In this document: piece by piece, positions 24,637 through 54,132 of the stretch | Position numbering within the stretch: position 1 is the stretch's first letter | How the letters are laid out: each line of letters opens with the position of its first letter | DNA from: Ectocarpus siliculosus | Taxonomy: Eukaryota; Sar; Phaeophyceae; Ectocarpales; Ectocarpaceae | Length of the DNA stretch: 54,145 nt | NCBI GenBank assembly: GCA_000310025.1 | Contig: FN649741.1 | Span: 3,528,927 to 3,583,071 of the forward strand | Reading direction: 5' to 3' | Program-made: the position numbers and the translations under genes | The notes under the pieces: model-generated | What the model was told of the DNA's origin: nothing | Databases searched by the model: none | The model's input: only the letters and a program-made list of their open reading frames with translations

Positions 24637-25070
24637 TCATGAAGCTTCGTCTTCCTCTTCCTGGTTGTTTATTCCGTTCACCGTGCTTGCAGCATTCGTT
24701 AGCCAACTCAAACCTCCACCGCCTCCGGCACCATCACCGGCGCCGGCAGCAGGAGGAGGGGTCGCGGCTGGTGTGCCATTGCTAACGCCCTGGCGCTCAT
24801 CCGCACCACCGTAGCCTGCTGCGGAATACTCGTACCCATATCCATCGCCATAGTACCCCTCGTACCCCTCGTACCCCTCGTACCCCTCGTATCCTTCGTA
24901 GCCCTCGTACCCTTGGCCGTAGTAGCCGTCGTCGTAGCCACCGGCGGCCGCGTTGGCGTCTCCGGCTGCGTTAGCCCCTGCCGAGCCAGCGACGTCGGCG
25001 AGCCAGTCCGGTACCCCCGCGCTGGCCTCGGCGCCACCACCCCCGCCACCACCACCGCCACCATCGTCTC
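24637..25070 (-). other. Last exon: Gly-rich and YEG-repeat cytosolic tail
   Basis: This exon encodes 143 residues plus TGA. It opens with a run of about ten Gly, then AGVPDWLADVAG, an Ala/Gly stretch, about six tandem YEG units (RC of TACCCCTCG, 24842-24905), a Tyr/Gly segment, Pro/Ala/Gly linkers and an acidic end (NNQEEEDEAS). The preceding exon has a related motif, GTPDWIQGLGG. The tail looks disordered and Tyr-rich. No kinase, GFFKR or FERM-binding motif can be named with confidence. Confidence 0.7.
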
Positions 25071-28000
25071 CTTCAGAAGATCAACAAGCGACAGCAGGAT
25101 CTTGTCAGTCTCGAGGGGGCGGTGTGTTAACCAACCAGAGCGCATAGCGTACGAATCGGTTTGGGCGGAAAACGCCCGGGCATTGTGTCGTCGGTGTGTT
25201 AGACCCCACCAAAGAGTTGTACAACCCCTTTCACACTTCTCAGCCACGACAAACGAGCGCGCTCGAACTTGTCTATGCTCTCGTTGCGCGATCCCCCTTC
25301 CCCACCCCCCCTGTCTACCCACACCGTCTCTATCCTCCTCACTCCCACCCCAAGCTCACCGCCTAGACCCTGGATCCAGTCCGGAGTACCGGCCGCCGCC
25401 CCGCCGCTAGAGCAAGGCGCCGCTGTTGCCGCGGTGCCGCCGCCCCTGTCGTCTGCCGTACCCGCGGTGGCGTGGTTTGCTACGGAAGAAGAGCCTTTTC
25501 TCCGCCAGCGGACCCTCCGGGTGTACCTCTGTCCACCTGGCGTCGCGGTTGCCTGCTACGATTTGATAATTTGTTTTGGGCTGGTCGGTCGTTTGAAGAG
25601 CGCTTGAAACCATTGTAACTCAGACGTAAGACGAATGGTGCGTTTAGGAGGTTTGGCGGTCGAAACTCGGTGCATGGTGGCCTCGTGCACGCACGAACAG
25701 CAGGCAAGCACGCCGGCATCCTGGCAGGCTAAGCGGAGGGAAGTCGGCGAGTAGATTGCTTCAATGGAACCTACCTACCGTAGCGTTCAGCGTGCAGGTT
25801 GGCTTAGATAGTGCGCTGCGGACTTGCAACGTTGTGGCGCGTAGGAGCTAGGTGGCTCGTGGGCCTCGAATCCGGCACGAAATCTTCCGAGTGGACCCGT
25901 TCGCGGTGCGAGAGTCGTCTCTCACCTGCTCCACACCGGTGCGGCTGTTCTTGATCCGCATGAAGGGGGGCATCCTCGCCAGGACACGGCCACCTGGTCG
26001 CCGTCCGCCTGGCCGAGTGCCGTTACCGTCCCCGGGGTCCATGGCGGGGGCAACGGCCTCGAACCCAGGGGACACCTTGTCCTTTTCCGCTCGCCGATGG
26101 CGGCGGAAGGCGCAGCCTAGCAGGCAGACGACAATCTTTCACAGTTACAGATACCGGTACCCCAGGTGAGACAGAGACGCCGAGGAGAGCCGGGAAAGGA
26201 AAAAAAAGTACGTGAAGGGGTCGGGGGGGGGGAGGGTGGCGTAAGTTGCTCGTTACTGGGTGGGTTGCGTTTAGTTGCTGCGATTGGGTAAGAGCGACTT
26301 CGTTGTTGTTGGGCGTAAGACCAGGGGAGCTGAAGCAAGTACTCTGAGTGCGGGCGGGCGCGCGAGGGGGGGGGCGGGGATGCACGGCGCGGCCTTGAGA
26401 AATACTTTGCAATGTTCTTGGAGTTCCATTCTCCGCCCTAATGCTTATTCGATGTTGATGCCCGCAACAACGAACATCGAACCGATTACTCCCAAAGCCT
26501 TCTCCATCTCACCAACGCCCCGAGCGATGAGGCCGTCCACGCGAACCAAGGATGTCTCCAGAATTCGACATCGTCAGGGTCGACGAGGGACAGCTCCAGG
26601 GTCGGGTCGTAGAGAAGGGTGCCGGAGGATGCCGGGAACCTCACGGTGAAGCTAGTGCCCGACAAGGAGACCTCGTCCGACTGCTCAGCGTTTGATTCGT
26701 CGCACGGTTCAATACGTGCACACACGTCGAGTGGTGTACGTTGGGAGGTGTTACTGTAGCGACTGAGTTTAATTTCGGTCTCGTTCCGAATTTGGACGGA
26801 AAGGGAACGTGCAGAGGAGGTGGTGGGGGTAGTGCGTGGATTGTTTCGCTGTTTGGCTATGTGCGCCCGAAAAATTTCGTGGACACGGACTACTTCCGCT
26901 AGTACGAGCCATTGTGGACAAGATGGCGAAGGTTCGTGCCTGTTCTGACCTACAGGACATCTATCCCAACAACGCTCACCGACCACACGAATCTCGTCGG
27001 CAATACGAACAGAAAAAACCCGTGCACTAACACGCATTCCTCGTACACAGGTAGGCCATATCGTCGTATGCATAACCGACCTTGGTCCACCCGGTGTCGT
27101 CGGTGCTGATCCACTCCGACATCACCAGCGTTGCCTCGGCACTTTCGCCGGTCATGGTGTACTCCACCCCTCCGTTTCTATCCGCATCCTCCAGAGCAGG
27201 TGTCGACAGGACCGGGGTCGACGAAGATGGGCCCAGCACCGCAATCTTGACGTCCAGAAAAGCTCCGGTTTCGAGGGTCGAGGACGACGCCGTCCCCGCC
27301 GGGCACACCGTGAGGGGCGTGTCATCGGTGCTACGGCGGGGCTCCGTGGATGGGTCGCAGAACGGCCAGTCGGACACCTCGAGCGAGATTTTCAGAGTCC
27401 CAGCAGACACCTGGGGGATATAGGGCGGGAGCAGGAAAAGTATTTTGTGGAGGCAGACGTGTGCACAAGTTTTTGCTGGCGCGTGATCGTTGGGTAAACC
27501 CCTCAGTAGGCTACAATGACGTTGCGTAGCACCCCCGATGTTATCCGGCTGGGGTAGAGGGAGAGGAGTACTGATTTTGTTGGTCTTCTTTGCCGCACGA
27601 CCCTTGACCAACCGGTTGTTGGGGGGGGGTTGCTAGAGGCGGGAAGAAGGCTGGTTGTAACAGTTGGAGACACGCTATAGAAGTGCGACTAAGACGTTGA
27701 TGACACTGAAACAGAGAAAAAAATAGCCGGCACGGCTACATGACTCCTCAGGAGCATCCGCCGGGCGTGCAAGTGAAGTTTCGCGGCTATGTTATCTCTT
27801 GCTCACTAAACCTGACTGGATGCTGAACTCACTACCACAACTCACTTCCGTCTGCTCGTCGCCACTGGTGACGACACCATCCTCCTCGAACACTTGCATG
27901 GTGACCTGTTGGCGTGCCACGCGACGTTGTCGTTGTCGTTGTCGTCGTTGTTTTCGCAGTATTTACCCGCGGTGGCGTTATGAATGTGACGATGCCGTCG

Positions 28001-31000
28001 TGATCATGGCGATGTCGAGAGGAACATGTTATGAGCCACAACAACAGCAGCAGCGGCAGCAGCAGCACGGATTGCGAGGGTGGGCATCCAATTCATTTAA
28101 GCGTTACATAACCTTGATTGTCAAGGTACATGGGACAGGTATCTGGTTAAGCAGTGGCAATAGGCAGTGAGTCGACCCGGCGGTCAACGTCGGGTGGCAA
28201 CAACATACTTCTATTGAGCGAACGCCCGTGTCTCTGTTGGCGGCGATTGGTTCCAACTCTTGCAGACGACCAACCGTTCGAGTCAAATCTCTCTTCGCTC
28301 CCTGGTTGTCCCTGGTTCCTCCCGCTCACCGTGATCGACACCTCGCCGCCCAGGGCGGACGTGGTCATGGTGCTCTCTTGAGCGGCGACGCCTTCGACGG
28401 TGACGTTGGTCGTGGCGGTGGCCTCGTACACCAGGCCGCCTCCGTCCGCTACGTGGGGGAGCTCGGCACCCAGACCCACGAGGTCTCCCTCAGAGCTCTG
28501 CGTGTTGCCACGTGACGCACACAAGCATGCGTGTTCTCATGTGACACACACAAAGCAAAAATATACATCGGCAGTATATGACGCCCCGAACCAAGACATG
28601 GGACCAGCTCCGCGGTCTGCAGATTAAGGGTAGGTTGCGGCTTGCTTCACGTCAACAGCAATGGAGTGCAAAGAAATTGTAGGTGTTGAGCTACTGTCTA
28701 CCTTGGTACGGGCGCTTAACGTGAGGGGCGGCGCTCAGGTCGAAGGTGTCGTGTCTTCATCCTCACACGGGTTTACGTCCGAACCCTCACCTTTTCTTGC
28801 AGGCCTCCCAGGGCCATGGCAACCCTTGTGTCGTCGTCGAACCACCTGTCTGCTCCGAGCGACACCTGGACGTGTTCATTTTTTCCCGGCACGTGAGCCA
28901 GAAAACGAAAGAAGCCATGAGGAAGAGGGGTCATACACCACCCGACAGCCAGCGACATCAAAGACGGGGCAGATATAGCAAGCACAACACGTGACTTAGA
29001 TACGTAGGAGAAAGACGAAGGGAGGAGACAGAGACGGGCACGACTATACTTATCCAACTCCTTGCTCGCCGAAGGCAAAATCAAAACGAGTGACAGGAAG
29101 ACGCTACTTGATGCCCGCTGACACAATACAGCAGTCACTGTGATATTCGCTGTGATATGCGCACCTTCCTTCACCGCACCAACGCCCGAGACGCGAAACA
29201 CCAGCACTCAACATACGTTGCCGAAAACTGCTGTACCGCACCTGCCCGCCAAGCTCGTGCGCCCGCACGAACACTCCGGGGCTGTCGTGCACCGTCCCCG
29301 CTCCCACGACGCCTTCCACCAGAAAGTTGACCGTGGGCGAGGGAGTGGCCCCGGGCCCGGCGGACACCGGCGCCGGTGTGGGTGGTCCCGGCGTGGGAGA
29401 CATGGTTGGGGGCGGAGTTCCGGTGAGGCCCGGGAAGACCACGAAGGCCTCCCCGGCCGTGCCGGAGCCGTAGGCGCCCACGACTAGGTCCGGGAAGTCG
29501 TCTCCGTTCATGTCGCCTTAAGTTGGAGTTGTTTCCAGAGAAAGGGTTGGTTGGGGAAGGAGGGAACGGGGGCAGGAGGGCGAGCGAGGCGTCTTTAGGT
29601 TGGAGAGCGGAGGTATCTTGTCGTGCATGATTGGTGCATACCAGAGCTTCGAGTGACACGCCGCGCGTGAAACGGTCTGTCGTCTTCACGCCCTGTGCCA
29701 TCCTGCTCCCCCCCCCCCCCCCCCTTTTCTCGACCCTCCACTCGCAGCGACATGTTTTTTGGTCCGAGGGGACGAGCTTCTGGGCGTCCACCCTCCGGAG
29801 CACATGGACCATAAAATGTCACGCCGGAACACGTACAAACTCACACATGTGTTGATGCAGGCCAAAAAGAGACAAAAAACAAGTGGGGCATCCGGTGAAG
29901 AGTTCGCACGAAAGACTATCACACAACACGCCAAAGGAGAAGGGCGTGGGAGGAAACGTCCTGTATCATCCTCATTCATATGCTTTTCTGACCATAGTAT
30001 CCCTACCCAGCCTGGTGGGAACTGAGGCCGAGGTTTCACCAGACAGGCGGGCAGGCATTACACCGAGCGCGATGGGTTCTTCTCACCCGCCCCTGACACC
30101 GAAAAGCCTCCGAAGCCCTCGTCCGACGGGGCTGTCAGTGTGTAGCTCCCCTCGGCATCGATGGCGCCTAGGGTGTACGAGGCTTCGGAGAGGGTCTCCC
30201 CGCCGAACACGACGTAGGCCGAGCCGGCATCGCTGCCGACTCCGGGGGCACCAATCACGATGTCGTCGTAGCCGTCCTGGTTGATGTCCTAGTTGAAAAG
30301 GGTTGGTTGATTTCGACCCCAGAGGGGAGAGTCGACCGGGGGAATTCAAACGGTGGGGCATGAAGGTTGTACCAGAGTCGAAGAAGAACTTCAAGGCAAA
30401 CCTGTTACCAGTTTAGGAAAAAGGAGGCTCGGGTGCTGTTTGTTTTTTCGCTGCGCTTCGTGCTGGAAATGCCCCCTGTTTACTTCCGCTGCTTGCTTTG
30501 TCTAAGTATCGCGCAAATGCCTCTCGTTAGTTCACTGCAGTCGACCAGCCCGCACTATTTATCCCCTTCCTCTCACCCCGGCGCTGGCGACCGACGTGCC
30601 GCTGCGGTCCCCCTGAGAAGCCCCCTCGAGCACGAAACCGTTGCTGCCGTTCAGATCCGTCAGCACGTTGACAGGGGTGGAGATGTCGCCTCCGCCGAAT
30701 ATGATGTAGGTCGCCCCGGCCGAGCTGCCGCCGCCGCTCGCCGGGTCGGCGAGGGCATGCCCGATGGCGATGTCCCCGTACAAGTCGTTGTTCATGTCCT
30801 GCATGCGTGTTTACAGGGGTATTCGTGTGCCCACGTTTGGGTGATCAAATTGTCCACTCGAACTTCGTCCATGGTTTATTGGGGATGTGGTCCGTAGCAA
30901 GACGTTTGTTTTTGGTGGTACGTTGATTTCAGAGTCTCCATGTGATGTGCTCGTTGGAATTGCTTTGGCCTCCGATCCGTGCACAATCGGAAACAGGCAC

Positions 31001-31054
31001 TCAAGCTCCTGTTTGCGCCGCCACACGGCACACTGCTTTTCCCGCTCCCCCTGT

Positions 31055-31086
<32 letters not shown>

Positions 31087-34000
31087 CATCTTCTTCTTCT
31101 TCTTCTTCTTCTTCTCCGGGACTGCCAGTCCTCTGTCTTCTTCTACTCCAACAATATTGGTTCGGTTTTTACTCTTTATTGCGCGATCGTGGGTCTTACT
31201 TTCTCTCTCTCTCTGTGTCACTATCTGTCTCTCTGCCTCTCCCTTTCTCTTCTCTGCCACATACACACTGACATTTTCCTTGTGACACAGTCTGCCGGAC
31301 AACAACGACCACAAGAACAACGGCCGCGAGAAACAAATAGAGCTCACCCCTGCCCCGGTGACAACGATCTCGTCTCCGTCGTTGCCAGTAGAGATGATGA
31401 AACCGTCGTCTCCCGAGAGCGCACCAAGCGAAACGACTTCCGACGGGAACACCGCGGCTCCGTAGAACACGTACGCCTCGTTGGCACCGTGGGCAGAGAT
31501 GATCACATCCGAGTAGCCGTCGTCGTTCACGTCTAGTGGGTGTGTTGTTTGTTGGTGGCGGCGCCGCGGGGAGTTGTTGACGGGTTACGGGAGGGCGGGA
31601 AGGGAAAGGTGGGGGGAAGAGCGGAGAGGTTGTTGGGGCAAGCATGCGCTCTATCATTGTCGCAATAGGTTTCGATGAGCACCAGGCGGTGGTTCGCATG
31701 CATCGAGGCAGGCGGCGACTGTGCGCAACAGTCCCGCAAAGCCGGGCATGGAATCAGCTCTACCGGGCCGCAACGGGGCGATGAGATCAGAAGCACCCAA
31801 AGAAGGGAGACGGGGCAGGAGTGGAGTGGAGAGCGGGGTGCTGTTACGGGGGAAGCTACCCTAGAAAGTCTTTCCCAGCGAAAAACGTTGTTGGCCGACG
31901 AACCTACGAGTGTTTGGCGGGGTCTTGGAAGGACAACATTCTTTTCTACTCAAAAAATTGTTCTCGAACGCCATTTGCTATCGCTTCCCAATACCATTCT
32001 CTCTAGTGCTTTGGGGGAAAGGTGTGGTGTCAGATGTCACGGATCCGTGCGTCCTTCTCCGCCTACCAGTCTCATGATGTAGCACCCCGAGTGTCAGATA
32101 CTCTTTGCCGCCTGGGTGGAAGGTTGATGTTCATTGTTGTCCGATACTGCTACCAGAAACGCATTTGCGACTCTATGAAAAATGAGTTTAAAGCACCTGT
32201 GGTTGCCTTGGAAATTCAACAACAAGAAGGACAGCAGCAGCAGCAGCAGCAGCAACAACACCAGCACCAGCATCATCACATCAGCAGCAACATTTCATCG
32301 AAACAACGACGTCAGCCTTCCCAAAACCCAAGAATCACACATGCACACAGAGCAGCCGATCATTCCGTTTGTACAACACCACCATCACCAGACAACGAAA
32401 GCCGTCTTCTCCGCGCACCTCCGGCGCCGGCCACGCTGTGACCCACATACTCCCGTCGCTCCGCGCCCTCAAACGTCAGCCCGCGCAACCCCAGCTCTCC
32501 CAGGTCGAGTATGCTGTCGGTCCACGTCAGCGAACCGAAGACCACGTACACCTCGCCAGACATTGATCCCGCCGGGTCCGACTGGAAAGCTCCGATGATC
32601 ATGTCCGCGGCTCCGTCGTTGTTGACGTCCTGGTCGTTGTTTGTTTGATCGGTAGACGGGAGCGTGTGTAGTACAGCACGGCGAGGGCGGGAGGTGAAGA
32701 GAGGGCGGTTAATAGAAAACGTACGAAGAACAAGTGTGCTTCACTGCTGTTCTCGCCTATGCTTGGTACACTTTCCGTCAGTGTGATCTCTCCAGCAAAG
32801 ACGGTTTCGTGTCGTTTGGGAGTGCATGCGTGGTAACTTGACTCCTGTGTTCTGGAGGTGACCATATGCCATTCTCCTCTCTCTCTCCTATCTTTGCTAT
32901 CCCCGTCTCTACCTGGTGGAACGAGGAATATCACGATTTATGTTCTTTGCCTCAGCGACTGTCCAGCAGATCAAGGTTGAACGGTCTGAGATTACGAACA
33001 CTCCTAGTGTTAGCATGAATGCTCATGCCAGCGTTATCCAGCTTCACACCAAGGCCTCGATCTCGAATAGTTTTTCTACCGGGTCATCCTTCCTCCCAAT
33101 CTTGAAGTTGTCGTTGCTTCACCCATATGCGCTTGTCGCGGGTGGTTTCTATGGTCATACCAGTCGATAGTCTTTTCCCAGAAACGGACCAGAAACGGTT
33201 TTTGTTGTGTTTGTGGGAAGAGACAATTGACTGGTATACCCATACAGACCACGCGCGAAAAGGGCAAATGGGTGAAGCAACTACAACTTCAAGGTTGGAA
33301 GGAAGGATGACCCGGCAGAAAAACAATTTGTAGAATGAGGACCTGGGCGTGGAGCTGGGTAAGGGTGGCATGGGCGTTGATGCCAACGCTCTATTTAGAG
33401 CGTTCGTAACCTCAGGCCGTTTAGCCTAGAACTGCTGGACTGTCAATGAGTAAAAAGTTTTAATCGTGTACCAATATTCGTCGCCCTACAAGGTAGAGAC
33501 GGAGATAGATAAGAGAGATTTAATGTTCACCTCCTATCGTTTAGCCGCCTGGCACCGAGTCGAGGCGCCACACCGTTGCCATCAAGACAGAACGTACTTT
33601 CTTTCATCGCTCAGTAACACTCTACGTGTTAGTCAATTTGACGTGGGTAGAAATCCCCTACCTCGGTCGAACTCTCTACTGCACATTATTTTCTTTCGAT
33701 GCAACCCGTCTCTCTTCCTCCAGAACGTGCCGACATGTTGTTCCCCTGCTTTCGACAGACCAGAGGTCGGTTTTTGCCACATTTACCCAATACGCCTCAT
33801 CTCGACCGTTATGGTTCTCTCTGCTACACCCTTATCTGTACTTTCCCCAACTTGCGGTTACCGCTCTACTTTGTCTCCGATCTACTACTGTACTTTGTGC
33901 GAGTATTACTACATCACCATGACCTGCACCTTCACCGTACTTCATGAATCAGGCGCCCCTTTCGTCACCGCAAACGGCGTTTGCGCACACAAAACTTCAA

Positions 34001-35627
34001 AAATATGCACCCTTTTTTATGTATCCAAACGTTAACCAAGAAATGATCAAACGCACCCCCGCCGCCGCTAGGCTGAAGCCAGCCGCATCAGAGGTGGTTG
34101 CGCCGAGCATCACGAACCCCGCGGAGCCGTCCAGGTCGGCGACGCCAACGACGGCCGGGAAGGTAGCCGCACCAAAGACGACCAAAATTTCTCCCGCCGC
34201 AGAGGACGCGCCCCAAGCTCCAACCATCACGTCGTCGTACCCGTCCCCGTTGACGTCCTTTCGTGTCACGTTGTTGGTGGAGAGTTTAGGAGGGTCGGGA
34301 GGAGGATGAAGTTGTGCTCGGGGGAAAGATGCTCGAGCGACTCGAACGCTGTTTTCTTTTTTGAGAGGACTGATACAAGCAGCGGCAGCAGCCGCACTAA
34401 TCAACAGAGGGAACACATTTCCGCCGGTTAAGTTCTGCAACTCATGTTTCCCACTTACCCCAGCGCCGCAAACCGCGGTCCCAGCAAAATCTCCGGCGTC
34501 AGTGCCCTCTATCTTGAAGCCGTTCGTGCCGTCCAGAGCGGAGACGTCCAGGTTTAGGGCGGAAAAGGACTCCGACCCGAACACAACGTACGCCGCCCCG
34601 GCGGTAGAGGTGGAGTCGGGAGACTCGCCGAGAATGACATCATTGAAGCCGTCGTTGTTGACGTCCTGGAACAAAGGCAGGGAGAAGTGGGGTGATGTGA
34701 AATATTGCGCGTTGAACTGATTTGTACCTTCGATGCTGTGATTAGCAAGGAGATTGGGTCACAAACCCGATCGAATTTATGTTAACCGTTGGAATGGAAT
34801 TGATCAAGGGCATTGGACATGACAAGACCCAAACACTCTGTTACACAAACTGTACTCTGTAGACAAGTGTCAGAGACAGACTTTCTGGAGGTGAGAACGA
34901 AGGAGTCTGGAAGCCACGATATTCTCCACAAGTACCGAAGGCATCAGTTATATGTCAAAACGACTTCCAATTGTATATTGCATCCGATAGGAGCCGACAA
35001 TGCACCCTTCATCTCTATGTTTCAACCTAGTCCTTGACAATAGCACACTTCTCAAAGAACACCCAGAGCAACAGACGAAAGGTGTCGTCCAACACTACCA
35101 CACCGAGAGAAACCAGACGGTGAGCTTCCTCTGCATATGTACAACAATATACACCCTGGTCCGAGCAAATCATGTTGAGAGAGAACTACAACATGAGCTA
35201 TACAGCGGCTGCTTCGTAACCTACTTTGTAAGGAGCTACGAAGAGTATCTATCTATCGTCTTGACTATAGACTACATCGCGGTCTACGCACAGCAACAAC
35301 AGCAGTAGTCCGCAGTCTACCCCTTCAACCAGAGGACAAATGATAAGAGTGAAGCTGCCTATGTATTTGTGCTTCATACCATAGACTACTGCTGTAGAAG
35401 GTTGTTTTTACGTATGTGGTTATTCGTCCCGTGCTCTATGACAATCTCACCCCAACTCCAGAAACTGAGTAGCCAAGCCTGCCCGTCGAAAACTCGGCGG
35501 TCACCCGAAATCCGTCCGTGCCGTCCAGCAGACCCAAGGGATACTCTAAATGTCCAGGCCAGACGGTTGCGGCTTGGGACCCAAGCACTTGCAAGCCCGC
35601 AGCAAGCACGCGCTTGGCGAACGGCAT
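24637..35627 (-). CDS. Integrin-alpha-like FG-GAP receptor, single-pass membrane protein (5' end unresolved)
   Basis: This encodes a cell-surface adhesion or signalling receptor by family. Exons, 5' to 3': ~35627-35451 (start uncertain), 34665-34459, 34257-34057, 32629-32419, 31532-31348, 30798-30577, 30288-30087, 29516-29242, 28865-28791, 28497-28330, 27905-27846, 27410-27081 (or to 27049), 26680-26513, 26135-25926, 25479-25360, 25070-24637 (TGA 24639-24637). The first eight encode beta-propeller blades, most with a D-x-N-x-D loop at the start (DVNNDGFND, DVNGDGYDD) and a GxxV(A/S)GAG end; one has a textbook VIGAP. A Pro/Thr-rich stalk and beta-rich ectodomain follow. The transmembrane helix spans FAWTASSLGAL/IVVCLLGCAF, then RRHRR. 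The tail is Gly-rich with YEG repeats. No beta-integrin, RGD or signal peptide was found. Brown algae are reported to carry integrin-alpha-related genes. The joint between 25926 and 25479 needs either donor ACCG/GTGTGG near 25935 or an unseen exon. Confidence 0.85.
24842..24905 (-). repeat. 9-bp coding tandem repeat (YEG units)
   Basis: Tandem TACCCCTCG units on the plus strand, the last ones slightly diverged, encode Glu-Gly-Tyr repeats on the minus strand. The repeat keeps frame, so copy-number change would lengthen or shorten the tail without breaking it. Confidence 0.85.
25926..26680 (-). other. Transmembrane segment of the integrin-like protein, split by an intron
   Basis: The exon 26680-26513 ends in WFAWTASSLGAL. 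The next, 26135-25926, begins IVVCLLGCAF followed by RRHRRAEKDK. Joined in phase 0 they make about 21 uninterrupted non-polar residues and then a basic stop-transfer segment, as expected for a type I membrane protein. The acceptor is CTGTGAAAG, which lacks a good pyrimidine tract; a better-looking site (CTGCTAG, 20 nt downstream) would break the helix. Confidence 0.75.
31060..31115 (+). repeat. CT and CTT microsatellites in an integrin-like intron
   Basis: A CT dinucleotide run is followed by about eight CTT units and sits within the intron between the exons ending at 31348 and beginning at 30798. A poorer CT/CTG tract continues near 31203-31250. No coding role is seen. Confidence 0.85.
32231..32256 (+). 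repeat. CAG trinucleotide repeat in an integrin-like intron
   Basis: About seven CAG units plus flanking CAA/CAG variants lie in the intron following the exon that ends at 32419 (minus strand). Confidence 0.8.
33066..33328. repeat. 263-bp imperfect inverted repeat (foldback or MITE-like element)
   Basis: Two arms of about 131 bp face each other around a centre near 33197 with almost no loop. Matching blocks include CTACCGGGTCATCCT (33076-33090) against AGGATGACCCGGCAG (33304-33318), and TACCAGTCGATAGTC (33158-33172) against GACAATTGACTGGTA (33222-33236). All tested pairs share the same centre, so there are few or no indels. The two strands consequently translate into near-identical peptides, which is an artefact of the symmetry. 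The element lies in the 1.4-kb intron between integrin-like exons ending at 34057 and starting at 32629. No clear target-site duplication was seen. Confidence 0.85.
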
Positions 35628-36247: not shown

Positions 36248-39200
36248 ATGCAGCAGCAGCAGCATCAGCAGCAGCGCCGACCAAGGCAGTGGGGTGGGCC
36301 TAACCGCCCCGGGGGGCGGAGGAGGTCGCAGTCACTCCTGGAGACACTCAACAGTCGAAGCACCAGCGGGAGGCCTAGGGGTGTCGAGCTGTGGGCGGAG
36401 GACGAGAGCGTCTTCCGCCAGCAGCTGGAGTATCTGGACCTGGCGGCTGCCTGTGCTGGTTCGGGGCCATCGCGGTCGACCATTGCCGTGGCTTTCAGCA
36501 CCGACGGGTGAGTTTCTCCCCCAAGAGGCTTACAATTTTTCACAGCAACAGTAGTACCGCTTCTTTATCCTTACATGCAGGCAGTCGCCGGCAGCTCCGG
36601 CTCCGGAGCTTGGTTGGGACCGCGTGTGAAGTTGCTCAACTCCCCTCGACAGCAGAGGCCAGATCTTTCTGCGAAAAGTCACCGGATCTCGCCCTCCTCC
36701 GGTCGTAACACGCTACTTAATATTGCAACGTTTGGTAGCCTGGGCCACAAAGGCAGTGTGGACTGGGTCTGTTTCGTCTGTCTTCTATGCGGAACTGATG
36801 AGCAGGCCCGCCAAACTTGGCTGCCTATTCCCCCGCTTTGATGGGCACATGTTACATGTAGGTCGTGAGCCTGGCAGACACGCACTACTTGTACAGCACA
36901 TCCCGCCGTGTATCGCGGCTGTAGATATTATGCCCGCGGGGGGGAAAGCCTCGCCGACCGACCAGAAGAGCCGGCCGCCACCCCAGGCTCCGCAACCCCT
37001 CTTCGTTGGATCGATAGCGTAAAGGCTCCCGCGCGACTTCGTACATTATACACACGAAGCACCAGCCGCCACGGTTTTCACGAACAGCCACATTCTTGGC
37101 CAAATGCCAGAGCACCGTCTTTAAACTTTTTGTAAACGGTTATTTTTCCTCGTGTGCTGCGGACCCCTCTGCTGCTGACTCAACTCGGACGAACGCCTCG
37201 GACCGAGCGTTTCTGTCTCGGAACGTTAACCTTCGCTGTGACCTAACCTACAGACACCGGGAACTGCCACGCGCGAGAGCTCGCACATGTCATGTAGAAA
37301 TAGAATTTTTTAGATGCAGTTTTTTTATTTGTGTGACCTGGGATGCGTCGGTTGTTTGCTGACCGGTACAAATGTGCGAGTGGTTTTGACGACGACCTGA
37401 ACAGCCACGGTGGTCTGTAAGGTGTACGTAGAGATGTAGAGCCGGGACGGAGTTAGGGTGGTCTCGGTGGCGACACGTGTAAAACCATTTGCGGTCGTAG
37501 TCGGGCGAACGGGCGGCCAAGGCGTGGTCTGAGCCACTCGATTTCAGGAGATGCTCGACCCACAGCAGCAGCGCCATGAGCCACTTCATGCCGTAGTAGT
37601 TTCAACCGTCGTTCGATCAACTGCCGCCCGTCCGTTGGTGTAACAACAACCCTTGTGCCACGAAGAAAAGGGCGCCCACGGGTAAAGAAGCGTTTGGGTG
37701 TTTTTCTGTGCCGCCCTGCTTGCTTCAAGCGCGACACACCTCCGATACGGACGTGCATGCACGTTTTATTAGAGCCGGCCTGTGAGAAAGAGGTTACGAA
37801 GCGTGGCAAAATGAAATCCAGAGAAAACAACACTACCAACAAGAACGCCGCCAACAACAGCAACAACAACATCAACATCAACACCGACACAACACCAACA
37901 GTAACACCGCCACCAGCACCGACAGCACCAACTGCAACACGAACAACTTCAACACCAATAACCAACAACAACAACAACAACAACAACAACCACAAACACC
38001 CCAACAACAGAAAGCTGTTCGCGTCGACACACGGCGACCACACGGTGAAGATTACGGACTTTTTTCGGGGGAGGGTGGTTCAGTCCCTGCAAGGGCACCC
38101 CAGAACTCCGTGGACGGTCAAGTTCCATCCCAAGGACGCCAGGATCGTGGCCTCCGGTTGCATCGGATCCGAGGTGTGTTGTGTGTGGTCAGGGGGGGGG
38201 GGGGGGGGTGCGGGGGATCTCGGCCCTCCGGTACCCTTGATCGGTGTCTGGTGTCGTGTGTCGTATGTTTATCGTGACGACCTGATATGTATCGTCCTGC
38301 AATTTTCGCGTACATTAGCGCCGCCGAGGGTGTGGAAAGTCTATTCTTCTTTTCCGCCCCTGATACGGATACTTGTTGTCTTGCTCTGCTTTGTTCGGTT
38401 TCCCGTTGGGTTTCGGTGCTGTTGCCTTGCTGTCTTTGTTGTGGTGCGGGCGCGGCGGACGCCCTTTGTGTTGTCAGGTGAGGGTGTGGAACGCCTCGAC
38501 GGGGCGTTGCCTGCACAGCGTGACCCTGGAGGCTGCCATCATATCCTTGAGCTTTCACCCTTCCGGCAAGATGCTCGCCATAGCCAGCAGCCTCTACGTC
38601 TACCTGTGGGACTACAACGTAAGTGACCGATACCTTCGTACATGGCTTGTTTTTGCCGGCACATAACCTGTAAAGCTGAAGCAGCACCGAGGAGAAGGTA
38701 CTAGGGAGACGTCAGCAGCAGCAGCAGCAGCAGGAGCAAAACACTTCGCGACGAATTATATCCTAGACCTTGACGAGGGTCATATCCAAGAGGCATGTCG
38801 AAATAGGTGTGTCCCTAAGTATGTACGTCACATTTCAAAATCGCACGGTCCCGCAAATTGGTCATGTTACTGAAGTGCATCCCAAGGACTTGCAGATACT
38901 GCTTGGTGACATCGTTGCCGATATTGGTTCTACACGGGTGCCGTGAGAGAACCAATGCTCAACGAACCGGCGTTTCGAAACGACTTCAACATTGTGTAGA
39001 GATAGTTGGTTTGAAGACGACCAGTAAATCTACCACGTGTGCCCATGGCTCCTTTATCATGTACTTTGTCCATGCGGAACACACCGTGAATATTTGGAAC
39101 CTGTAGTCTGCAGGATTTGCCTTCAACCACAGCGAGCTGACTTGAACCTTGTTCTTTTTTGCTCTGGCCAATCAGAGCAAGGCGCGCCCGTTCATCGCAT

Positions 39201-42188: not shown

Positions 42189-42220
<32 letters not shown>

Positions 42221-45170
42221 CAGCAGCAGCAGCAGCGGCGGGGTTCATTCTTCTTCCTTTCGTAGGCGTTGTCGCGCGTCGCCGTCGCTGGCGGTGGAGT
42301 CGCAGCCTCCCCGGAAGCTCGTGCCGCACCTCGTGATGGTGTCGCTCAACGTGGAGGGAGGGAGAGGAGGAGGAGGAGGAGGAGGAGCGGAGAGAGGGAG
42401 CGTAGCCCGGGTGGTGCGCGCGGAGCCGATGGACACCCTCAACGCCAAGCAGGTGTCCTTACGTAACCCAAGCAGTTCGCTCTTAAACGTTTTTCGGTAC
42501 AATATAGCCCGGGCATGGTGATACCTTGCGTGGCGTTTGGTATGTTGTCGTGAACCGGGAATGTGGTGTGTTCGATGACCCTTTTAATTGATCAAGAGAG
42601 TTTCCTTAGGTTTTGGGCTCACGTTTAGCCGCACAATGGTGTTTTCGCCGACGAAAGAGCGGCGATCATTTGTGGGGGTGGTGTCTTGCGTAGAATACGG
42701 AAGTTTAGTGCCTCTTCCTGCGGGGGTGTTATCTTGCGTCGAACACGGGAAAACCTTATGCCTCTACATACCTTGGGTTCTAGGTGAAAATCCGCTCTGG
42801 ATTTAGCCGTTCGCTAGAGTAGCCCCATCAAGCTTATTTTCACGCAAGTTTCCATCTGGGTACGGCAAGAGGAGCGGGGCCGCAAGCGCTGTTCTTGTTG
42901 CCTCGTTGCAATGCTCGACTGGGGGGTTGGAAATATGTACATAAAGAAGAAAATGGATGTGGCATCTTGGGACCTTCGATCTGTTATCGTTGCACGATAA
43001 AGTTCATCGTTTGACCAACCACCCTTTAAGCTCTGCGCGGGTGTCGTTCGCGAATGGGTCTCGTCTTTGCGGCCTTCGACCCGGCACGGTCGGTGCCGCA
43101 CGCACACACCTCCTGGCGGTTACATCCCATGTCAACCTCCGTGCTCTCGCGAACGGATGCTACATTCGAACAAAATCGATTTTTTGAAGGTCACGTCGGT
43201 GAAACTGTCGCCGTCTGCGCGGTACATCCTACTCGGCGTGGGGGTGCGCAACGGCGGTCTAGGGGGCGGCGGCGGCGGCGGCGGCGGTGGGAGGGCTACC
43301 CGACAAACGAGACAACAACAACAAGAACGACAGGCGGCCGCTGTTCCTGACCGGTGAGTGAGTTGGTTATGGCGTCGAGCTCCCCTACTACGGCAGTAGC
43401 AGACCTTGCCAGGGTGACAATCGTGTGTGTCCGGACTGTTTCGGGGGCTGATGTCAGAGAGACGGATGGCCGTAGGTTTCGGAGGCCTTCCTCTGTCTGT
43501 CTGCCTGTCTGTCTGTCGCTTGCGGCCGGACAGATGTTGCGACGAAACTCAAGATGTGGGGGCCATGTAGATGATGAGCGTATTTCACTTTGAACTGCTG
43601 TGGACGTGTTTATTTGGTCGTGGCAATCGTTGACGAGGAAGACAAAGCGGAGCATGTACGTGCAAAATAGAACGGGGAGGAGCTTATCCAGGCTGATGGG
43701 CTTCCGAGCACGCCGGATCGGAGCACGGCCCTGCAATGGAAGGATGTTGCTCCGCTATTCAGACACGAAGGAAATACGGTGTCTAATGGGCACGTTCGCT
43801 GTGCTTTTCTCCCTCCTGCCTGATCCGTCCCCCCGTCGTTTGTTTCTCCCCTTCTTCCCTCCGTGTGTGATTGTCGTTTCACCGCTCGTCTCTTTGTCGG
43901 GGCCCTTAGGCGAGGCAATGCGCCGGACGCCCCAGCCATCCCTCTCCCGTCGCAACGCGCTCTATCTTCCATCTACCGCTCCGTCGACCTCCAACCAGTG
44001 GTGAGATGTAGGGGGGGGGGAGCGAGATACGAAGACGACTGGCCAAAGAAACTTGACACAAGAGTAATCCCTTACGGAACAAGGTATTAAGCCGTGGTGG
44101 TATCCCAGACGACGTCAACACGAACAGCGGGAACTACTTTTTTTCACCCCTTTTTTTTTTTCCCCCGTTTGCTGCGTGTGTGTGCTGTGTGTGTGTTCGT
44201 CCGATATATTGCGGCGACAGTCCCCCAATTTTTCGTGGTGCGACGACGTGTACGACCCTTTTCAGTGTTGTATAGTACTACACTTTTCTGTTTGTTTTTT
44301 CTCGTACAACTACAACCATCCAGGTTCACACAGGAGGGGGGTAAACACAGGGGATTTTTCTTCTTTTCATTTCACTATCGCGCCCTACCTTCCTCCTGCG
44401 GTGCGTGCTGAATTTATTTTTTTATCGCGAATAGGGTCCAGCCGTCCCTTTCCCTCGTCAACGGTGCTACAGTAACGTCGAAGTTTGGTACTCACGAGAG
44501 CTTTTCAGCTTGTTTTTTTTCGCTTTCACCCGCAAAGTTGTAATTTTTCACCCATTGGTGATTCGATCTCACGGCTTTTGCCACTAGCGGTTTCGAGGTT
44601 ACCACTAGCCGACCGGGGCGACCAGTCCCTCCTTTGCGTACTCTTGGGAAATATTGCCCGTTCCTGAAGAAATATCGCTTGCTCCTACCTCGAAGAGCCT
44701 TCCCACATAGAGGGTCTTGTTGTACGGGAAGTGATATCGGAGACAATGATGAGGCCGTTTCCTCCTCTGTCCACGTCCTCTACCACCGTCATGTTACCCG
44801 TGAGAGAGGATGTTCCGACCACTTCCAGCTTTTGGGTTCTCGATGGGTTCACCCCGATGCCCCTCCCCCCGATTATCATTTATTATTGCTATTGTTTTAG
44901 TATGTTTATTATGAAGTACCAATTAATGATCATTATTGTTTCAAGCTCGATTCCTTTTTAAGCCCAATTCCTTTTCAAGCCCAATCTCCGAGTAAGGGGT
45001 AACCAGTTATACCCCCCCCACCCACGACGACCTGCTTGCAGAACTCGATGCCTATGCCCACGGGCGAGGAGGACGTGAACATCGCCTGCTTTCACCCGGA
45101 GCCGGGGATGGGGTGCGTGTACGGCACCAAGCAAGGGAGGGTCGGCCTCGTCAGGATGTCGGCCGATTGA
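36248..45170 (+). CDS. AMBRA1: AMBRA1-like split WD40 protein
   Basis: In animals AMBRA1 is a DDB1-CUL4 substrate receptor that controls cyclin D turnover and autophagy initiation through Beclin 1 and ULK1. Exons: 36248-36507, 38011-38173, 38478-38618, 39176-39316, 39958-40017, 40374-42452, 43190-43353, 43910-44000, 45042-45170; all phases close, giving about 1075 residues. The N-terminal WD40 part carries family hallmarks: FASTHGDHTVKITDF, GHPRTPWTVKFHP, IVASGCIGSEVRVWNASTG, SLSFHPSGKMLAIAS and VYLWDYN. The C-terminal part has VTSVKLSPSARYILLGVG and ACFHPEPGMGCVYGTKQGRV. Between them lies about 650 residues of Gly/Ser/Ala/Pro-rich disorder. Known AMBRA1 has the same split propeller. The ATG at 36248 (MQQQQHQQQ) is the first in frame. 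Exon 5 may start earlier than 39958. The roles of the algal protein are inferred from the family only. Confidence 0.85.
37811..38010 (+). other. Asn/Thr-rich open frame in phase with AMBRA1-like exon 2
   Basis: From ATG 37811 the plus strand stays open through a CAA/AAC-rich stretch (many Asn codons) and runs straight into exon 2 (KLFASTHGDH) without a stop. The accepted model splices over it from exon 1, which conserves the propeller (AFSTDG joined to KLFAST). The open stretch could be an alternative first exon, or simply a stop-poor repeat. Confidence 0.35.
38191..38208 (+). repeat. Poly-G run after AMBRA1-like exon 2
   Basis: A run of about 18 G lies 17 bases downstream of the donor at 38174. 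It could form a G-quadruplex near the 5' splice site, and it is also a likely place for sequencing error. Confidence 0.8.
39330..39380 (+). repeat. GA then CA microsatellite
   Basis: About 20 GA units followed by CA units lie just after the donor of AMBRA1-like exon 4 (39316). Confidence 0.9.
40374..42452 (+). other. 2.1-kb low-complexity exon of the AMBRA1-like gene
   Basis: One exon encodes 693 residues. Its start (LLSRALLYNDGGFDVSEDGL then WLCTIAELG) is a WD40 blade and its end (LVPHLVMVSLNVEG, then VVRAEPMDTLNAKQ) is the strand leading to the C-terminal blades. In between are poly-Ala (GCG/GCA), poly-Pro, poly-Gly and poly-Ser/Asn tracts: GGC/GCA repeats near 41054-41095, GGCGGT near 41952-41976, and CAGCAGCAG read as Ser near 42183-42238. 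The frame stays open for 2 kb despite these repeats, which supports it being coding. Confidence 0.8.
42674..42765 (+). repeat. Diverged tandem duplication of about 48 bp
   Basis: Copy one (42674-42715) and copy two (42722-42765) share GGGGGTG, TCTTGCGT, GAA-ACGG and TGCCTCT blocks in the same order. They lie in the intron between AMBRA1-like exons ending at 42452 and starting at 43190. Confidence 0.7.
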
Positions 45171-51300: not shown

Positions 51301-54027
51301 TTCCCCCTGCTTCACTCCGCCAACTCCTTGCATCCAAAAGTTGCTCCGCTCTCGCAATGGGCATAAATCTCTCCCTATCTCTCACCATGTCGTCTATGCG
51401 CACGAGCTCCAACAGTCGTGAGCATCCGAGGTAGTTGAGGGCCGCAATGGTGCCGATCAAGAACGCTCCTTCCACCTCCACGACAGCGCAGCCCGCTGTT
51501 AAAGAATGAAAAGAAGAAAGGGGAAACGATTGGTGGTATCTACGGCTTTGGCCGAACGATGTGAGCCAGCATCGACGACTAAGAGAGAGAGGGGGAGAGA
51601 CCATCGACCAATAGAAACCAAATACGAGCCTCTTTCACTTGATTGAACTGTTTTAGTGGCGCGATTTATGTGTGCTCTGTCGTGGGCGCGTTCGGCGACA
51701 TTGCCGGCGTTGCCGAACCACACGTTGAAAAAGAGTTGGGAACGTGGGACAGGAGACGGGTGGGTTGACAGGAGACGGGTAGGTTGACGTGGCCTTGTAG
51801 GGAGCTCATTCTCTATCTGCGTAGCATGTTTTGGGTCGTCGGAAGGAGTGTACGGGAAAGTGCTGAAAACAAGCCACAAAACACATAGGCCTACAATACG
51901 CGTACAAGACAGGGCACAGGAAACATTGCTACCCACCTGATATTGCAACAAGTCCCGAGAGCAGCTGGGCAGAGTGTTGAGCCAAGCCGTACAACGACAC
52001 GGCGTGCGTAAGGATCGGGGGGAGGGAGGGAGGGAGGGTCACGAGGGCCAAAACGACGGCCAATCAATGCGTCGAAGAGAGCAAGACGTATGATATGTTT
52101 CAGCACACAGCTCGCCTCGCATAAAATAATAGGTATCCCGTGTTGAATCATTTTACTCCAAACAAGTTACTGACAACTTGTTTCTTTCAATCTCTCCTTT
52201 GTTTTCGCGTGCTGTATCAAAAAGGTCCGGCAAAAAATGGGGCCTCCCCTTACGATGGATATTTTCAACCCTAGCTCTGTGTTTCGTCGCCATCGTTTGT
52301 TGATACACTCGCTCACGTCGACATGAGGCGTTTCTGCTGCTACGCTGGGCGCCCGCTTGTGACAAGATGCGTCGTTTCGTGCTTCGTTACACGACTATAA
52401 ACACGGTATCATCTTCGACACTCTCAAGCATCTTCTCCAACCTTGAAAGTTCAACGAAGCTGTGGCGTGTCTGAAGGCACAACCGACAACGCGACATTAC
52501 CGGTCAAGCTCGTCACTACTGCTCAGCGTATTCTTCGTGAGCAGTCATGCGCCCGTATCAACAGCCAATGTAGTGTCCGCGATCAAGAGAATGCGCGTGG
52601 AGGGTTATTCACAAGAGTACAAGTATATCGGGAAAAACATAGAGAGACTTACGCCAGCATTCAAGTGTGGATACCCAACAGGTGGAAGCTTGTCGACGCA
52701 CAACCAGGGTTAGGCGGCCTATACGACTGCGTGCGGTTCAGGTATCACTACACAAGAGTGCTGCATCAGTTTGTGCGTTTGAAGAAACACGGTTCCAGTT
52801 GAAAATGCGTAAACAAGGCAACGGGAGAAAGAGCAACACACATTGCATTTGGAAGGCGATTGTGTTCACACCCCAACGATACTGGTCTCATAGCAGCTAC
52901 TCAGTAGAGTGCGAGCGTGGACACGCTACTCGGAACGTGAACTATTGCAAGAGAAATGTTACGGTTACGTACTCTTCCGTCGACCCTCGCTCCTCACCCC
53001 GTTGATGACCTGACCAGGACCGACATGCTGAAACAGAATCAAGCTGGTGCAGGCGACCCCCAGCGAGGCCGATGCGGCAGCGATGGAGGTGCACACCATT
53101 GCCTTGGCTGCAACGTGCGAGCTGCCGGTTATGTACAGCGTGCTGTTGTTGCAGAGTGCAGTTCGTTGGGGGCAAACCGTTGGACGCAGGAGGGCGCGGA
53201 GGGGCAGGGCGGTGGGGTGCGGTGGGGTGCGGGGCGGTGCGGTGCGGGGCGGGAAGGACGATATGTTACTTTGTTCACATGGATGGAATCCGTGGACAAG
53301 AACCTATAAGGGGGTCGAGCCTCGATTTACCTCGCAATGCTTCAGCTGTTGACGGCTTACGACGCACTACAGCGGATCCCAAGTTGCGTCGTGGTGTTGT
53401 AAAGACGAACTCGTTTTTTGTTTGGAGGAGCAAGAGGCTGCTTATCAAATCTCTCATTTTCTCATTTGCGGTCGGAACTGCTGTGCGCTGAATGTTATTC
53501 CGTACGGGCGTTGTTGACCCTAGACGTCTGGCTGATGAACGCTTGCCAGTCTTAGCCGGGCTTAACAGATGTCTGTGTACGGCCAAGGCGGGGAACGATG
53601 TCACGGGGTACACCGCGTAGAGAGCAACCGATACATTGCGTGTGCGCTAGAGCTTGTGTAGCAGGAGGCAAACAAGCGTTCTCATGGACGGCACGGAGGA
53701 AGTGGAACGGCCATCTGAAAAGCTGGTCTGGTCGACAACGCCAGCCATCTGCACGCATGACGTAAGAACAACATTGCATGCTAGTATGAAAAGGTGAGGG
53801 CATTGATGGTGAAAGATCCGCGCGCTGTGCAGAAGTCGTCGACAAGTTTCCATCGTCATGGATGGCGCTGTGCAGAAGTCGTCGACAAGTGTCTATCGTC
53901 GTGGATGGCAAAAACCTTCAATGTGATCGCCATAACTTGCCGCGGGGTCATGGTGAGTAGAGAAGGGTACCCACCTGCATCCGTTGAATCCATACCACCC
54001 CACCCACAGAATGAAAGCCCCCAACGC
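48322..54027 (-). CDS. AMT: AMT-type ammonium transporter, C-terminal two thirds (5' end beyond right edge)
   Basis: AMT proteins carry ammonium across the plasma membrane. Exons: 54027-53975, 53142-52998, 51964-51937, 51495-51386, 50538-50426, 49197-49057, 48790-48322; every phase closes, giving about 352 residues. Family landmarks in order: ALGAFILWVGWYGFNGCSTL (the GWYGFN signature), a helix SSHVAAKAMVCTSIAAAS, NGLLSGLVAISAGCAVVE, RLLELVRIDDMVDASPVHLA then NGVWGMIAAGLFAS (its His matches the second pore His of the twin-His pair), GLLYGCGPRQLM, a TM ending YMGILRIS, and the C-terminal AGTDSVAHGGSDM. The first pore His lies outside the window. The last exon may be shortened by a donor at 48586 (AG/GTCAGG) leading to an unseen exon; as drawn it reads to TGA at 48324-48322. 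The tail after HGGSD contains short MAPS repeats. Confidence 0.9.
51748..51788 (+). repeat. Two-copy 19-bp tandem repeat
   Basis: GACAGGAGACGGGTGGGTT is repeated once with a G-to-A change, inside an AMT intron. Confidence 0.8.
51937..51964 (-). other. 28-nt microexon of the AMT gene
   Basis: Acceptor CTCTGCCCAG and donor TCAG/GTGGGT bound 28 nt encoding LLSGLVAIS plus one base. It joins NG upstream and AGCAVVE downstream to restore a core AMT signature. Without it the frame breaks, so it must be constitutive for a working product. Confidence 0.85.
53185..53255 (+). repeat. G-rich tract with GGGGTGC/GGTGC repeats
   Basis: Short G runs repeat as GGTGGGGTGC and GGGGCGGTGC. The tract lies in the first visible AMT intron and is a candidate G-quadruplex former (plus strand, the template for the AMT transcript). 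Confidence 0.7.
53822..53907 (+). repeat. 43-bp tandem duplication
   Basis: GCGCTGTGCAGAAGTCGTCG with its following sequence (to CGTGGATG) occurs twice head to tail, starting at 53822 and 53865, with a few substitutions. A related sequence lies around 53690-53720. All are inside an AMT intron. Confidence 0.8.
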
Positions 54028-54089: not shown

Positions 54090-54132
54090 GAGAGAGAGAG
54101 AGAGAGGGGGGGGGGGGGGGGGGGGGGGGGGG
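54090..54132 (+). repeat. GA microsatellite running into poly-G
   Basis: About eight GA units are followed by roughly 27 consecutive G near the right edge. With the poly-C at the left edge, both window ends lie in or near homopolymer runs. Confidence 0.9.

Follow-up and report, generated by a model that had tools for sequence, protein, structure and literature searches.

Genes in which every structural repeat has an exon of its own are already known in brown algae: the available text on the ROCO genes describes one LRR per exon, with NB-ARC-TPR genes cited alongside as a further one-repeat-one-exon case (PMC11378527). Integrin-like genes of Ectocarpus have also been published (PMC3192720, PMC8307928), and a literature search, made largely among journals readable without subscription, returned no paper on FG-GAP exon structure for brown algae or stramenopiles. 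Here we describe a gene on the minus strand of a 54,145-nucleotide stretch of Ectocarpus siliculosus DNA (contig FN649741.1, positions 3,528,927 to 3,583,071; the whole stretch is called the window, and all coordinates refer to it). The gene is predicted to encode an integrin-alpha-like protein whose head is a ring of seven FG-GAP repeats, with an intron in or beside the calcium loop of each repeat. The ring is probably of bacterial type and older than its introns, in which case the regular exon pattern would record intron sites in an existing ring and not the growth of that ring. The gene would add FG-GAP propellers, after LRR and TPR, as a third repeat type split one per exon in brown algal candidate receptors, and this case would have a different, static character compared to the shuffling LRR exons.

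What the LRR/ROCO genes have in common with this gene is that a candidate receptor is divided into one exon for each structural repeat, the introns recurring at the same point of the repeat. However, the LRR exons are reported as 72 bases long, all in phase 2, intensely shuffled and subject to splice variants (PMC11378527), whereas the window's exons measure 185-222 bases, two of the introns are out of phase, the repeats belong to a fixed-size closed ring as modeled below, and identity and codon tests give no sign of recent shuffling. One repeat per exon is found in six whole-unit exons; exon length and phase are not uniform.

The bacterial FG-GAP propellers (PMC3192720; loci L001, L002, L003, and L068) share with the window's ring an N-terminal part, six units, a C-terminal part, and seven loops, and the ring is 39-42% identical to three of them in one alignment. 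They differ in being intronless and in having units that are usually far more alike within a ring. Compared by its published description, the Ectocarpus integrin-alpha-like protein CBN77719.1 is likewise brown algal and seven-bladed, of similar length (1105 versus 1139 residues), with a Gly/Ala-rich and Ala/Pro-rich C-terminal part and, in the text available, no KXGFFXR motif; four calcium motifs are reported for it, as opposed to seven in the window's gene (PMC3192720). Animal integrin alpha has the same propeller fold and the same head-stalk-membrane-tail order, but the window's gene has seven calcium loops instead of three or four, no KXGFFXR, and no recognisable stalk domains.

Introns in the calcium loops of the propeller

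The joined minus-strand reading frame is open across 16 exons, from 35627 to 24637 (1,139 codons), and the 15 introns of the model are bounded by GT donors and AG acceptors, the splice junctions being predicted from the sequence itself. Repeat units were located with a 71-position blade profile for which 174 bacterial units, and none of the window's own, were used. The propeller part of the model is as follows.

e0, 35451..35627, minus strand: first exon of the model, with an in-frame stop just upstream of the ATG; exon start uncertain
e0 end, 35537-35451, minus strand: N-terminal part of the split repeat unit, profile positions 43-71
e1, 34459..34665, minus strand: whole repeat unit, phase 0-0, symmetric; profile 1-71 of 71, 68.2 bits, match ends equal to exon ends
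e2, 34057..34257, minus strand: whole repeat unit, phase 0-0, symmetric; profile 1-71, 63.6 bits
e3, 32419..32629, minus strand: whole repeat unit, phase 0-1, asymmetric; profile 1-71, 64.2 bits
e4, 31348..31532, minus strand: whole repeat unit, phase 1-0, asymmetric; intron one base inside the GAC codon; bacteria-only profile 1-63 of 71, mixed profile 1-70
e5, 30577..30798, minus strand: whole repeat unit, phase 0-0, symmetric; profile 1-71, 56.6 bits
e6, 30087..30288, minus strand: whole repeat unit, phase 0-1, asymmetric; profile 1-71, 55.7 bits
intron before e7, minus strand: two bases upstream of the GAC codon
e7, 29242..29516, minus strand: C-terminal part of the split unit (29514-29434), then a Pro/Thr-rich stretch

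The bacteria-only profile places one unit in each of e1-e6 and partial units in e0 (43-71) and e7 (1-31), and an earlier mixed profile gives the same layout, with e7 matching positions 1-31 or 1-32 of 71. The match is full-length in e1, e2, e3, e5, and e6 and ends no more than 2 bases from the exon ends; since our own pattern set the loop Asp as the cutting point of the bacterial units, this agreement of ends is partly by construction. Independent of that cut, no repeat unit is split elsewhere than at the loop. The ring is made of six whole units and one split unit (e0 plus e7), not of seven blade exons. Seven had been counted between 29242 and 34665 in a preliminary description of the locus; six whole units (e1-e6) lie in this interval, e7 is partial, and the rest of its unit is in e0, outside the interval. 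Neither profile scan detected relic blade exons above noise in the introns, and in the remaining window the profile found nothing else above 5 bits (next best match 4.8 bits), that is, no extra or decayed unit.

All seven loops contain D-x-N-x-D-x-x-x-D, with the Gly replaced in e5 (L) and e7 (D). The Asp/Asn/Asp/Asp ligand positions are kept in every loop, as they reportedly are in bacterial rings (PMC3192720). With the first base of the loop's Asp codon taken as zero, the seven propeller introns lie at 0, 0, 0, +1, 0, 0, and -2, and their phases in the same order are 0, 0, 0, 1, 0, 0, and 1. The exons start at or beside this codon (34665, 34257, 32629, 31532, 30798, 30288, and 29516 on the minus strand), each with its AG acceptor and GT donors, which agrees with the earlier observation that seven exons begin at the loop Asp. 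The re-read phases and the open joined frame likewise bear out five phase 0 and two phase 1 introns, the latter after 32419 and after 30087. Both phase 1 introns had been described as shifted by a single base; this is correct for the e3/e4 intron (+1, inside GAC) and not for the e6/e7 intron, which lies two bases upstream of the codon, within a Gly codon.

To put a number on this regularity, a random-placement model was used in which each intron falls at a G-preceded base in a span of roughly one repeat. Under this model, all seven introns would lie between -2 and +1 of the loop Asp codon with a probability of about 9e-10, the interval having been set once the data were known. Phase 0 is found in 12 of the 15 introns of the gene (7/8 outside the repeats and 5/7 at the repeats) and, being gene-wide, equal phase is therefore no sign of repeat duplication. 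The coding part of e0-e7 contains nine copies of the hexamer GGGGAC, of which five are intron sites. When the propeller introns were compared with each other, no common sequence was found beyond chance-level matches, the matches of 29 bases (83%, E 0.01) and 13 bases (E 0.05) being taken as chance.

The DxDxDG calcium loop is described as the 1,2-loop of the blade, joining strands 1 and 2 (PMC3192720). Using seven aligned sequences of bacterial or viral-contig origin, we predicted the structure of the bacterial relative L002 (pLDDT 86.1, pTM 0.90); in the model one strand ends at residue 35, the loop begins at Asp 36, and the next strand spans residues 44-49, and its fold matches in the PDB are integrins throughout the 50 matches listed. 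Taken together, the loop assignment and this strand layout suggest that every exon combines strands 2-4 of a blade with strand 1 of the blade after it, which puts the structural blade boundaries inside exons. The statement that each blade is its own exon therefore stands for the sequence repeat, which is whole in e1-e6, and not for the structural blade. By homology with the L002 model, the window's protein is predicted to form a closed seven-repeat ring.

By phase, single in-frame skipping is possible only for e1, e2, and e5 of the six whole-unit exons, and as pairs for e3 with e4 and e6 with e7. The proposal that symmetric exons would let the blade number change consequently applies to the former three, while e3, e4, and e6 are asymmetric. 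A six-blade version would also need e0 and e7 to close the ring with six blades. There is precedent for alternative exons in a propeller: X1 and X2 are reported for that of ITGA6 (PMC12564407).

Bacterial rings and copying among the units

Among 67 bacterial arrays of at least four loops, in 57 loci, 27 have seven loops by a strict pattern that misses degenerate ones. Seven-loop, LDG-type arrays of the same kind as the window's ring were obtained from intronless bacteria 29 times; these are not independent, since several share a genome or contig. The best relative belongs to Nitrosomonas sp. JL21; its match extends over all 437 query residues and reaches 41% identity in the best segment, and a ring on a Nostoc plasmid is 40.6% identical over 99% of the query. 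The JL21 genome (L001) is unusually rich in integrin-type rings, with 31 propeller matches at E 1e-20 or better. A close-relative scan of viral contigs gave no relative. An alignment-based scan of the same type of contig gave 22 loci, in all of which (22/22) the best open frame has at least two loop motifs and no exon split was seen; these loci were taken as bacterial or phage because of their unsplit frames and were left out of the tests.

Alignment of the blade exons with each other, suggested earlier as a check, gave no sign of recent copying. The mean identity among the six whole units is 0.378, no closer than to bacterial units (0.394 in register and 0.390 out of register). Units of the same bacterial ring have a mean identity of 0.557, and L081 (0.30) is the single ring of the 29 that falls below the window's gene. 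At identical residues, the window's units share 174 of 373 codons, and shuffling gives a mean of 169.7 (sd 8.9), with 318 of 1000 shuffles as high; without splice-adjacent codons the count is 150/337. An excess of codon sharing (z >2.5) is seen in 23 of the 29 bacterial rings, the exceptions being L002, L010, L033, L067, L075, and L081, and as these rings are intronless, unit copying is frequent without introns. Low identity together with chance codon sharing places any copying among the window's exons before synonymous saturation, so that such copying, if it occurred, would be ancient.

In a unit tree of 78 rows from 12 of the 29 arrays (71 columns, with few resolved forks and long branches that meet), three label changes are needed to account for the window's units, and the share of bootstrap trees that group them as one clade is 0%. 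An exon for each repeat is commonly taken as proof of exon duplication, and the preliminary description saw here a clear record of propeller growth by that route. This reading does not follow, because seven-loop rings exist intronless in bacteria, two of the seven introns are not at the same base as the others, and no mark of recent copying is found in the identity or the codons.

Origin of the exon pattern

Our current hypothesis, which we consider probable, is that a bacterial-type ring came first. The ring architecture would be the bacterial one, predating the introns, and spliceosomal introns would later have come to sit in the calcium (1,2-) loop of every blade. The inner exons would then hold strands 2-4 of a blade together with strand 1 of the blade that follows, and one ring-closing unit would be shared between the propeller's first and last exons. 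The intron regularity could stem from ancient copying of intron-bearing units, from repeated insertion at the same loop, or from both, and the exon pattern would offer no free switch for blade number.

Several points weigh against this hypothesis. Transfer from bacteria is suggested by similarity, and an old eukaryotic family is also possible. The AU test does not reject a single clade of the window's units (p 0.217), which makes copying inside a eukaryote possible. A kept bacterial blade order lacks direct proof: when the 29 rings serve for comparison, the in-register score has rank 21 of 720, yet with the 10 most varied ones its rank is 453 of 720 (516 of 720 with two sisters left out). The blade-order (diagonal) rank for 7 rings of seven units is 213 to 2057 of 5040, the controls L075/L080 and L010/L033 rank 1, and most single bacterial rings show no register versus the other 28, so the register ranks are not used as support. 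Ring closure in the window's protein is modeled on the bacterial L002 and not on its own fold, and the gene model is least certain at the beginning of e0 and where e11 joins e12 (gtcggt, acgag).

As to how the introns reached a common site, it falls somewhat short of an even chance that one repeat of a seven-bladed ring gained an intron which then spread by unequal exchange or gene conversion, with the blades staying at seven and the turnover long stopped. The exact coincidence of five of the seven introns at one base favors copying, such turnover is normal in the bacterial rings (the 23/29 with z >2.5), and the single clade is not rejected. The introns at +1 and -2 fit less well: one-base intron sliding is rare and sliding by more than one base has no support in the part of the literature consulted (PMC3488318), and for this reason the -2 intron favors separate insertion. 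Moreover, the window's units are not each other's closest, share codons no more than by chance, and have no sequence common to their introns.

Alternatively, a complete intronless ring may have been acquired and the introns inserted independently in each loop, with the repeated GGN|GAC presenting the same target. We regard this as a possible account, though one clearly on the less probable side. The offsets of +1 and -2 are as separate insertions would give, five of the nine GGGGAC sites in the coding part of e0-e7 carry introns, phase 0 prevails gene-wide, and there is a reported precedent of a bacterial gene filling with introns after transfer, the alpha-amylase of Basidiomycetes (PMC3584928). 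On the other hand, parallel gain is reported to explain only about 8% of shared intron positions (PMC3488318), and without a sharp target the coincidence has the chance of about 9e-10 given above. In addition, the G before the intron may result from splicing rather than cause insertion, and the related intron sequences that young introners would show are not seen.

The entire history in which a bacterial seven-bladed propeller entered a eukaryote and each repeat independently gained an intron in the same loop, from -2 to +1 bases, is doubtful and on balance unlikely. If true, it would amount to a natural experiment with seven near-replicate targets, intron gain would be steerable by local sequence, and a one-repeat-one-exon structure could arise without any exon duplication. 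With relatives from other eukaryotes, this gene could separate unit copying from repeated one-site insertion, a long-standing question of intron gain.

Growth of the propeller blade by blade through exon duplication in this lineage, with exon skipping changing the blade number, would account for one unit per exon and mostly equal phase, but it is very improbable. Intronless bacterial rings already have seven loops and the same closure, recent copying is not seen, no extra or decayed unit lies elsewhere in the window (next best 4.8 bits), and for three of the six whole-unit exons single skipping destroys the reading frame. That exon ends were picked to fit the repeat is hardly credible, for although the junctions were read from sequence alone and the profile units were cut at the loop Asp by our own pattern, GT and AG stand at each junction, the introns hold no blade sequence, and the frame is open through 16 exons.

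The remainder of the protein and of the window

The earlier view of an integrin-like receptor gene whose introns recur at one place of the repeat is supported, in the sense of an integrin-alpha-like propeller gene. The head matches FG-GAP in Pfam (E 2.4e-31), and sequence matches in the PDB are integrin alpha throughout the best 60 of 61, led by human integrin alpha-V (5e-14, part of the head only). The order along the protein is head, Pro/Thr-rich stretch, stalk, a hydrophobic stretch at residues 850-870 (hydropathy peak, 1.96 over the 19 residues 852-870, consistent with a membrane helix), RRHRR, and a Gly/Tyr-rich tail. Nothing beyond FG-GAP exceeded the Pfam cut-off in a scan that covered 641 of the 1139 residues. 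For the stalk, a PDB search by sequence for thigh/calf Ig-like domains gave one match, to an antibody chain (E 0.84). KXGFFXR is absent after the membrane helix, where the sequence reads RRHRRAEKDK. The product is thus predicted to be a single-pass membrane protein with an integrin-alpha-like head, integrin-alpha-like being the term we use rather than integrin alpha, and its role is probably that of a surface adhesion or recognition receptor. The remaining exons, and the e2/e3 intron, are listed below.

intron e2/e3, 32630..34056, minus strand: 1427 bases; enlarged by a ~630-base palindromic insert
e8, 28791..28865, minus strand: stalk, phase 0-0
e9, 28330..28497, minus strand: stalk, phase 0-0
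e10, 27846..27905, minus strand: stalk, phase 0-0
e11, 27081..27410, minus strand: stalk, phase 0-0; weak donor gtcggt
e12, 26513..26779, minus strand: stalk and first part of the predicted membrane helix, phase 0-0
e13, 25926..26135, minus strand: rest of the predicted membrane helix WTASSLGALIVVCLLGCAF (residues 852-870), basic RRHRR, start of the cytoplasmic tail, phase 0-0
e14, 25360..25555, minus strand: cytoplasmic tail, phase 0-1
e15, 24637..25070, minus strand: Gly/Ala/Tyr-rich tail and stop codon

In the cytoplasmic tail (25360-24637, minus strand), a short motif occurs three times (TPDWIQGLG, VPDWLADVAG, and LSWLTNAAS) and lies next to a GYE repeat, for which a tandem array of 9-base units codes (24853-24912); these could possibly be docking motifs. 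The palindrome inside the e2/e3 intron (32888-33517, ~630 bases) is 77% self-complementary, with inner arms of 131 bases (84%) separated by one base, and looks like a folded-back mobile element that enlarged the intron. The e3/e4 intron contains a long CAG/CTG trinucleotide run of about 20 copies (32232-32289), and a second such run, of about 15 copies, lies at 42191-42236. Rfam and tRNA scans gave zero matches. On the plus strand, an open frame at 37580-38626 has weak WD40/THOC3-type matches, all under the Pfam cut-offs (best E 2.4e-6), and is possibly a second propeller gene next door on the other strand. Near the end of the window, a 43-base unit is present in two tandem copies (53822-53909), and the window ends with a run of 27 G (54106-54132).

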